Positions 223 through 2,863 of a DNA stretch of 36,878 nt are shown here, piece after piece (position 1 is the first letter of the stretch; each line of letters opens with the position of its first letter). The notes beneath the pieces were generated by a model that did no database searches, was not told the DNA's origin, and worked only from the letters and a program-made list of their open reading frames with translations. Location of the stretch: contig DWUP01000194.1 of assembly GCA_020012075.1 (NCBI GenBank), positions 1 through 36,878 of the forward strand. Direction: 5' to 3'. The stretch is from Candidatus Avibacteroides avistercoris. GTDB taxonomy: Bacteria > Bacteroidota > Bacteroidia > Bacteroidales > Bacteroidaceae. Made by a program: the position numbers and the translations under genes.

Positions 223-750
223 TTATTCCGCTGCCGGAGCAGACTCATTGTTCTGAGCCGGTTGAGCATCAGCTGGCGTCTCGGTTGCCGCAGCTGCCGG
301 CTCTGTTGCCTGTGCTTGTGCAGCAGACGAAGATTTCCTGCGCGAACGACGTGTCTTGCCGGCCTGCTTGCCTGCCTCCTTCATCATGTTTTCATCGAAA
401 TCGACAAGCTCGATGAAGCACATCTCGGCAGCATCTCCTTGGCGTGTGCCAATCTTGATGATGCGTGTGTAACCTCCCGGGCGGTCAGCTATCTTGACAG
501 AGATATTTTTAAAAAGTTCAGTCACAGCATATTTGTTCTGCAAGTAGCTGAACACCACGCGGCGTGAATTTGTGGTGTCGTTTTTCGACTTGGTCAGGAG
601 CGGCTCGACATACTTCTTCAGAGCCTTTGCTTTTGCGAGGGTCGTAGTGATTCTTTTGTGCATTATAAGCGAAATGGCCATGTTTGCCAACATTGCCTTA
701 CGATGAGATGCAGTACGACCCAGATGGTTGAATTTCTTATTGTGTCTCAT
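223..750 (-). CDS. rplQ: 50S ribosomal protein L17
   Basis: [24 protein letters not shown] start; position after rpoA; Ala/Pro/Glu-rich C-terminal tail. Confidence 0.97.
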
Positions 751-752
751 TG

Positions 753-1745
753 TTATTCTTTGTCTAATTTGTATTTAGATATATCAGTCCCAAACGACAG
801 ATTCAGACTCGCGAGCAAATCATCAAGCTCAGTGAGCGATTTCTTACCGAAGTTGCGGAATTTCAAGAGGTCAGTCTTGTTGTACTGCACGAGGTCACCA
901 AGCGTCTCAACTTCAGCAGCCTTGAGACAGTTGAGCGCACGGACTGAAAGATCCATATCAACTAACTTGGTCTTGAGCAGCTGGCGCATGTGAAGCACTT
1001 CTTCGTCAAACTCCTCATTGCTGTCATTGTCTGACGATTCCAATGTAATCTTTTCGTCAGAGAAAAGCATAAAGTGATAGATGAGAATTTTGGCAGCCTC
1101 TTTCAATGCTTCCTTCGGGTGTATGGAACCATCGGTCGTAATCTCAAGCACGAGCTTCTCATAATCGGTCTTTTGCTCGACACGATAGTTCTCGACTACA
1201 TACTTGACATTACGGATCGGAGTATAGATAGAATCGATGGCTATCATGGTGGGGTCAGTGCAGAACTCCTGATTCTCGGTGTAAGGCACATAACCTCTTC
1301 CTTTGTTGATAGTCAATTCGATTGACATCGTCGCTTTTGAATCTAAATGGCAGATAACTAATTCAGGATTTAACACTTCAAATCCAGTCAAATATTTATT
1401 AATATCACCTGCTTTAAATTCAGTTGCATTCTCGATGGTCATGCTGACCTTTTCGTTCTCGAATTCCTCAACTATCTGTTTGAACCTCACTTGTTTGAGA
1501 TTCAAAATGATGTTAGTGACATCTTCTTTGACTCCAGGAACGGCCGCAAATTCATGCTCGACGCCGGCAATCTTGATCGTGTTGATTGCAAAGCCTTCGA
1601 GCGACGAAAGGAGAATCCTGCGCAAAGCATTGCCCACGGTCGTTCCAAAGCCTGGTTCGAGAGGACGGAATTCGAATTTTCCAAATTTAGAATCCGCCTC
1701 TAACATTAAGACTTTATCGGGTTTTTGAAATGCTAATATTGCCAT
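753..1745 (-). CDS. rpoA: DNA-directed RNA polymerase alpha subunit
   Basis: 330 aa; [26 protein letters not shown] and C-terminal [14 protein letters not shown] alpha-CTD motif; alpha operon context. Confidence 0.98.
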
Positions 1746-1755
1746 GAATCAATTA

Positions 1756-2361
1756 TTATTTAGAGTACAACTCGACGATCAAATGCTCCTTGATATTCTC
1801 TGGAATGTCGGCACGTTCCGGCACATGCAAAAACTTGCCCACTTTTGTAGACTCATCCCATTCAAGCCATGGATATTTAGCATGATTGAAACCTGCCAAT
1901 GAGTCAGCGATTACCTCCAAAGACTTCGATCTTTCTCTAACTGCTACGAGTTGGCCCGGCTTAACTGAATAAGATGGAATGTTTACCACTTTGCCATCCA
2001 CAGTTATGTGGCGGTGTGACACCAACTGACGCGCAGCTGCACGCGACTTGGCAATGCCAAGACGATAGACGATGTTGTCCAATCGGCTCTCGAGCAATTG
2101 GAGGAGCACCTCACCGGTAATGCCTTTAGAGCGCTCTGCCTTTACGAAGAGATTACGGAATTGCCTCTCAAGCAAACCGTAAGTATATTTAGCTTTTTGC
2201 TTCTCACGTAATTGGATGCCATACTCTGAAGTTTTTCTTCTCTTATTGTTACCATGCTGTCCTGGAGGGAAATTCCTGCGGGACAAGTACTTGTCGGGTC
2301 CGAATATAGCTTCACCAAACTTACGTGCAATCTTGGTTTTTGGTCCAGTATATCTAGCCAT
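1756..2361 (-). CDS. rpsD: 30S ribosomal protein S4
   Basis: [18 protein letters not shown]4 RNA-binding motif [29 protein letters not shown]. Confidence 0.98.
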
Positions 2362-2384: not shown

Positions 2385-2452
2385 AGTTATGATTTCATTT
2401 TGTTGCAGCCGCGATTACAGGAAGGAGATGTAATCCATAACAAAACAATCTC
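2385..2452 (-). promoter_or_regulatory. Candidate structured RNA (S4-type leader) in the rpsK-rpsD intergenic region
   Basis: Nested inverted repeats: TTTTGTT (2398-2404)/AACAAAA (2439-2445) outside and GATTACA (2413-2419)/TGTAATC (2429-2435) inside, with a 9-nt loop. Confidence 0.6.
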
Positions 2453-2473
2453 ACATATTAATAAGCTATATAA

Positions 2474-2863
2474 TTAAACTCTGCGTCTTTTCGGTGGACG
2501 GCAACCATTGTGAGGAAGCGGCGTCACATCAACTATTTCTGTGACCTCGATACCTGCACCATGAACGGTACGAATAGCGGACTCACGTCCATTGCCCGGT
2601 CCCTTGACATAAGCCTTGACTTTTCTCAAGCCGAGGTCAAATGCGACCTTTGCACAATCTTGAGCAGCCATCTGCGCTGCATAAGGAGTGTTCTTCTTTG
2701 ACCCCCTGAAACCCATCTTTCCTGCAGAAGACCACGAGATTACCTGGCCTTCCGAATTAGTCAGAGAAACAATAATATTGTTGAACGACGAATGGACATG
2801 CAATTGGCCATTTGCATCAACACGGACGTTTCTCTTTTTAGCTGCGACTGTTTTTTTTGCCAT
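2474..2863 (-). CDS. rpsK: 30S ribosomal protein S11
   Basis: [38 protein letters not shown]-terminal [18 protein letters not shown]. Confidence 0.98.

Follow-up and report, generated by a model that had tools for sequence, protein, structure and literature searches.

The gap between rpsK and rpsD in Candidatus Avibacteroides avistercoris encodes a two-tier hairpin. It raises the question of whether this RNA is an S4-binding leader inside the alpha operon and whether it imitates 16S rRNA, as had been proposed from the letters of the sequence. The window, meaning the whole stretch of DNA that was analysed, is 36,878 nt long. The rpsK-rpsD gap takes up 112 nt of it (2362-2473), and the hairpin lies within this gap on the minus strand. 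When the sequence was re-read, the minus-strand text 5'-UUUUGUU AUG GAUUACA UCUCCUUCC UGUAAUC GCGGCUGC AACAAAA-3' was found to be exact as first noted. Its two 7-bp stems, the outer at 2445-2439/2404-2398 and the inner at 2435-2429/2419-2413, are present together with a 3/8-nt internal loop. The outer stem is called P1 and the inner stem P2 (Table 1). The 3' end of the leader is about 29 nt short of the rpsD AUG. A simple scan of positions 2300-2600 found no terminator-like site and no sigma-70 promoter.

Table 1. Positions of the leader, its parts and the neighbouring genes in the window.
Feature	Positions	Strand	Basis
Conserved leader as a whole (P1, internal loop, P2, apical loop)	2390..2453	-	R1 span
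RF03139 S4-Bacteroidia match: inner hairpin and GCGGCUG	2406..2435	-	39.3 bits, gathering 34.7
P1 (outer stem) 5' arm, GAUUGUUUUGUU	2439..2450	-	sequence and covariation
P1 (outer stem) 3' arm, AACAAAAUGAAAUC	2391..2404	-	sequence and covariation
P2 (inner stem) 5' arm, GAUUACA	2429..2435	-	sequence and covariation
P2 (inner stem) 3' arm, UGUAAUC	2413..2419	-	sequence and covariation
Apical loop UCUCCUUCC, pyrimidine	2420..2428	-	
GCGGCUG, internal-loop 3' strand, near-invariant	2406..2412	-	gap reading and alignment
rpsK (S11), upstream gene, same gene run	2474..2863	-	NCBIfam NF003698, 188.9 bits
rpsD (S4), first downstream gene	1756..2361	-	NCBIfam NF003717, 282.9 bits; TIGR01017, 252.7 bits
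rpoA, downstream	753..1745	-	NCBIfam NF003516, 451 bits
rplQ (L17), downstream	223..750	-	NCBIfam TIGR00059, 136.9 bits

Identity and distribution of the leader

A cmscan comparison with Rfam placed the family RF03139 (S4-Bacteroidia) at 2435-2406 with 39.3 bits, above the curated gathering threshold of 34.7. The match is full-length (model positions 1-34), and the model alignment finds in the window a 7-bp hairpin that is followed directly by GCGGCUG. The genomic context of the family is also found here, with the element upstream of rpsD-rpoA-rplQ as in relatives. The score and this position bear out the idea that the alpha operon contains an internal leader of the S4 type. A match to MIR405 with an E value of 0.7 was rejected as chance.

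The original prediction also mentioned earlier proposals of S4 leaders in Bacteroidia, and this is correct (Eckert and Weinberg, 2020; PMC7247131). That paper describes, as a candidate family, a Bacteroidia motif upstream of rpsD, rpoA, and rplQ, for which S4 is the most likely ligand by precedent and the covariation-based rating is "likely." Its authors saw no likeness between the motif and either rRNA or the S4 leader of Flavobacteria, with the rRNA comparison covering only two sites, that of the likely ligand and that of the first downstream protein, and they caution on the confidence of ligand assignment (Eckert and Weinberg, 2020). From its name, lineage, and gene context, we infer that RF03139 is this motif. 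Because of the RF03139 match and the published Bacteroidia S4 leader, the leader was already known, and the window element is a further copy of a catalogued family. Experiments on the S4-Bacteroidia leader family were looked for in the literature, and none were found.

The Rfam model describes the inner hairpin, and a two-stem covariance model, R1, was built from 25 sequences with the window's own included. R1 scores 52.6 bits on the window (E 3e-12) and 60-61 bits on three relatives outside its building set (L024, L063, L064). An RNA-only search of 295 genomes of the order returned one copy per genome, in at least 37 with RF03139 and at least 39 with R1, the genome searches being strictly filtered so that their counts are lower bounds. 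In all 30 relatives' loci that were fetched from the RF03139 search, rpsD is directly downstream. Among 149 sampled genomes of the class, matches under this filtering were found only in the window's own order, Bacteroidales. At the level of distinct rpsK-rpsD gaps, GCGGCU and the hairpin pattern are present in 102 of 129. The leader is dispensable, because the other 27 gaps are without it. These are mostly short, usually 23-62 nt, and many are labelled Prevotella or Prevotellaceae. Leaderless loci include L090, L096, L103, L106, L108, and L130, and some are from termite-gut symbionts (L091, L115).

The most constant part of the element is the 3' strand of its internal loop. GCGGCUG is identical across the motif-bearing gaps that were read, with the exception of L129 (GCGGCUA), and GCGGCU forms an invariant column run in alignment A1. 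This invariance is partly ascertained, as motif-bearing gaps were picked by their GCGGCU content; the model searches are free of that requirement. GCGGCUG is a likely contact site for the ligand. The loops of the family mostly read CCUCUC, CCUUUC, or CUUCUC immediately 5' of the P2 3' arm.

Comparative evidence for the outer and inner stems

The folding energy of the gap is unremarkable (z = -1.42), and 18 of 200 shuffles fold equally well. The predicted fold pairs the outer strand further downstream, AUUGUUUU.GUUAUG with CAUAAC..UUAAACAAU. Since the energy was unremarkable and another outer pairing was preferred, the stems were judged by comparison. In relatives both stems as drawn show compensatory changes, in a pattern beyond chance.

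For one comparison, 44 distinct GUG/CAC-subgroup sequences were anchored and aligned without gaps, ignoring P1 pairing. P1 is paired in 73% (null mean 48%, maximum 63%) with a covariation of 0.347 (null maximum 0.266), and P2 is paired in 99% with a covariation of 0.394 (null maximum 0.359). None of 1000 tree-based null replicates reached the observed values for either stem, and the correct register outscored every slid one. For another, 91 matches were aligned with a covariance model, a procedure that favours the modelled structure. Here 86.3% of cells are paired, two-sided changes occur in 17 of the 18 pairs, two-sided cells number 314 vs. 95 in shuffles, covariation is 0.509 vs. at most 0.164 in slid versions, and a single P1 pair can show as many as six pair types. 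P2 is paired in 99.7% of cells (90 sequences) and has two-sided changes in six of its seven pairs, including GAUU/AAUC to GACC/GGUC. For the window's subgroup, eight pairs of P1 show 85-97% pairing along with compensatory changes. The P1 register beside the internal loop is shifted by one in this subgroup, which gives the loop strand GCGGCUGC. P1 is formed, for example, by GAAUC..GUG with CAC..GAUUC in some relatives and by CUUGAUUUUGUU with AACAAAUUGAG in the window's subgroup. A covariation test of all possible pairs (44 and 29 short sequences) ranked the stem pairs at the top in the first group; its power for single pairs was too low, and therefore per-stem tests were used. The comparison of related sequences argues that P1, missing from the Rfam model, is real and conserved in relatives. 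This puts the functional element at about 64-75 nt, vs. 34 in the Rfam model.

The downstream outer pairing of the window, 2450-2375 on the minus strand, comes out as more stable than P1 in the folding prediction, as it does for L033 and L035 of the same genus. It was rejected as a replacement for P1: it is absent from the prediction for L036 of the window's genus, and P1 as drawn covaries across relatives. As a folding prediction, it may represent a genus-specific switch.

Proposed function and rival readings

S4 autoregulates the alpha operon in E. coli and rpsD in B. subtilis. The window's copy of the S4-Bacteroidia leader is very probably an internal cis-acting element of the alpha operon, through which an excess of S4 likely lowers rpsD-rpoA-rplQ. 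S4 in excess over 16S rRNA would bind the internal loop and P2 of the leader, and bound S4 would reduce expression of the three genes just downstream. Translation would be the likelier regulated step, because no terminator was found and the leader ends shortly before the rpsD AUG. The data show the conserved RNA structure, its place directly before rpsD, the single copy per genome, and the score-based family membership; S4 as ligand, repression by its binding, and an action on translation are inferred.

The original prediction held that the leader might copy 16S rRNA, at the anti-SD tail or the 530 loop. We consider this very unlikely. In related 16S genes the 3' end reads GGUGCGGCUGGAACACCUCCUUUCU and the 530 loop GCAGCCGCGG. 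The claimed likeness of CAUCUCCUUCCU to CACCUCCUUUCU at 10 of 12 positions is arithmetically right, and related 16S does end in CACCUCCUUUCU, but the opening CA of CAUCUCCUUCCU is part of the inner stem. The loop CUCCUUCCU is tail-like, yet its 8 of 10 identities with the tail are reached by 18% of same-letter shuffles (P about 0.18). The loops of relatives share 6 to 9 of 12 positions with the tail, some of them only 6-7, and the CCUCC core is not kept in the family, where CCUCU and CCUUU are common. The likeness is thus at the level of composition and is not conserved. As had been stated, CGCGGCUGC and GCAGCCGCG of the 530 loop are complementary, and this speaks for mimicry in that 1.4% of shuffled 9-mers match antisense anywhere in 16S and 0.3% in helix 18, although it is one of several post hoc matches, with several rRNA sites considered. 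Since resemblances in sense and antisense to several rRNA sites compete, most of them must be chance. We regard the antisense match to the 530 loop, and likewise the sense match of GCGGCUG to helix 45, as weak. A further resemblance, of GAAUAAG in the helix 17/18 linker to GUGAAUA(A)G on the 5' side of the internal loop, was rejected. It belongs to the GUG/CAC subgroup, and it is no family feature because AUG or UUG mostly stands at this place in the window's subgroup. No family-wide likeness to the S4 binding site of 16S was found.

The RNA could also be a true autoregulatory leader whose ligand is not S4 and instead is the uS11 encoded by the adjoining upstream rpsK, L17, or a protein that senses the 16S 3' end. 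We think this unlikely. S4 is assigned by precedent only, and the 3' strand of helix 45 in 16S, which adjoins the CACCUCCUUUCU tail, also reads GCGGCUG. This helix 45/3' tail region is on the platform, away from the S4 site. However, the element immediately precedes rpsD rather than rpsM-rpsK, in two other phyla the operon of S4 is controlled by S4 itself, and about 3% of permuted GCGGCUG 7-mers (2.9%) land within the final 40 nt of 16S, other sites aside; roughly 8-11% match anywhere in sense. One specific proposal takes GCGGCUG and the C/U loop as a joint copy of the final 25 nt of Bacteroidota 16S, namely the helix-45 3' strand and the anti-SD tail, so that the leader would sense the holder of the 16S 3' end and not S4. 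This proposal was retained for two reasons: both elements lead to a single region, and a protein pocket exists there. PMC9976891 describes the Bacteroidia anti-SD tail as held in a bS21-bS18-bS6 pocket, and a tail mimic would therefore have candidate partners. We give it a very slight chance. An element that serves structure or stability, through RNA processing or protection at the rpsK-rpsD junction and with no r-protein ligand, would agree with the position internal to a long r-protein operon and with a caveat, given in PMC7247131, that the leader of an r-protein gene may act without binding an r-protein. Its probability is minimal in our view, as the unpaired, near-invariant GCGGCUG and the conserved pyrimidine loop suggest a sequence-specific partner instead, and Bacteroidota lineages fill the same gap differently, which is expected of repeatedly evolved S4 leaders. 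S4 feedback through the leader is the reading that we prefer. Counting against it are the assignment of the ligand by precedent, the want of a family-wide likeness to the S4 site, the leaderless gaps, and the alternative outer pairing that is predicted for the window's genus.

Two further candidates were rejected. An upstream-ORF attenuator was dismissed, as loop lengths among relatives are spread over the three frames and the start codon is not conserved. In the window a 7-codon AUG..UAA frame (MDYISFL; AUG GAU UAC AUC UCC UUC CUG UAA) at 2438-2415 on the minus strand overlaps the hairpin; it has only synonymous changes in L035 and reads MDCISFL in L024, with no wider conservation. A pseudoknot between the apical loop and the rpsD start region was dismissed by a swap test, in which own pairs had a mean of -2.08 kcal/mol vs. 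-2.33 kcal/mol for swapped pairs.

Other elements in the gap and comparison with known leaders

The same gap contains other elements in other Bacteroidota. In the Bacteroidia family f121 (L189-L218), 23 distinct copies of UUUAAAG[CA]UAAGAUUC-stem-GAUACUUUAAA are found directly upstream of rpsD, and six pairs of the inner stem have two-sided changes. No Rfam match was found in the f121 loci scanned. This motif is probably another, uncatalogued S4 leader. Four loci (L201, L208, L214, L215) carry the conserved f121 strands in swapped order, UUAUACU-hairpin-AGCUAAGA (UCAUAGUUAUACU in L201), which suggests a circularly permuted internal loop. A third type of element, GGUAUAAGCCCGGUCACGG-hairpin-GUGCGUUUGUC..GACAAACGAGACC, is present in family f131 and some other families (L219-L225, L173, L177), and it had no Rfam match where scanned (L172, L222, L225). 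With unrelated structured elements in the same gap, the Bacteroidota lineages clearly illustrate how r-protein leaders have repeatedly been replaced. The window copy is ordinary as an instance, and its value is a sharper definition of the family in terms of outer stem and element length. Mutations are best aimed at the GCGGCUG strand and the pyrimidine loop, which would give a first test of S4 binding in a Bacteroidales species a better target.

The window element shares with RF03139 the inner hairpin, the pyrimidine loop, GCGGCUG, the gene position, and the lineage. The RF03139 model has 34 positions, one stem, and a loop that is 4 nt longer than that of the window, whereas the window and its relatives add P1, conserved and covarying in 91 sequences. 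RF03141 (S4-Flavobacteria) belongs to the same clan as RF03139 (CL00119) and has in common with the window element the gap, the downstream genes, and a hairpin with an internal loop. It differs in having GAUUAUCGAAGGA..CCUUAAUUCAUAAUC and no GCGGCUG, and the two have no conserved nucleotides in common. The E. coli alpha-operon S4 leader is a pseudoknot before rpsM, at the start of the operon, and the B. subtilis rpsD S4 leader contains a GUAA rRNA mimic. An element of the B. subtilis/Fusobacteria GUAA type was considered for the window and rejected; the window GUAA (in UGUAAUC) is within P2 and varies to GCAA or GUGG together with its partner strand. The window element is operon-internal, with neither the E. 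coli pseudoknot nor the B. subtilis GUAA mimic, and by analogy it would share with both leaders one working principle, the feedback of S4 on its own genes.
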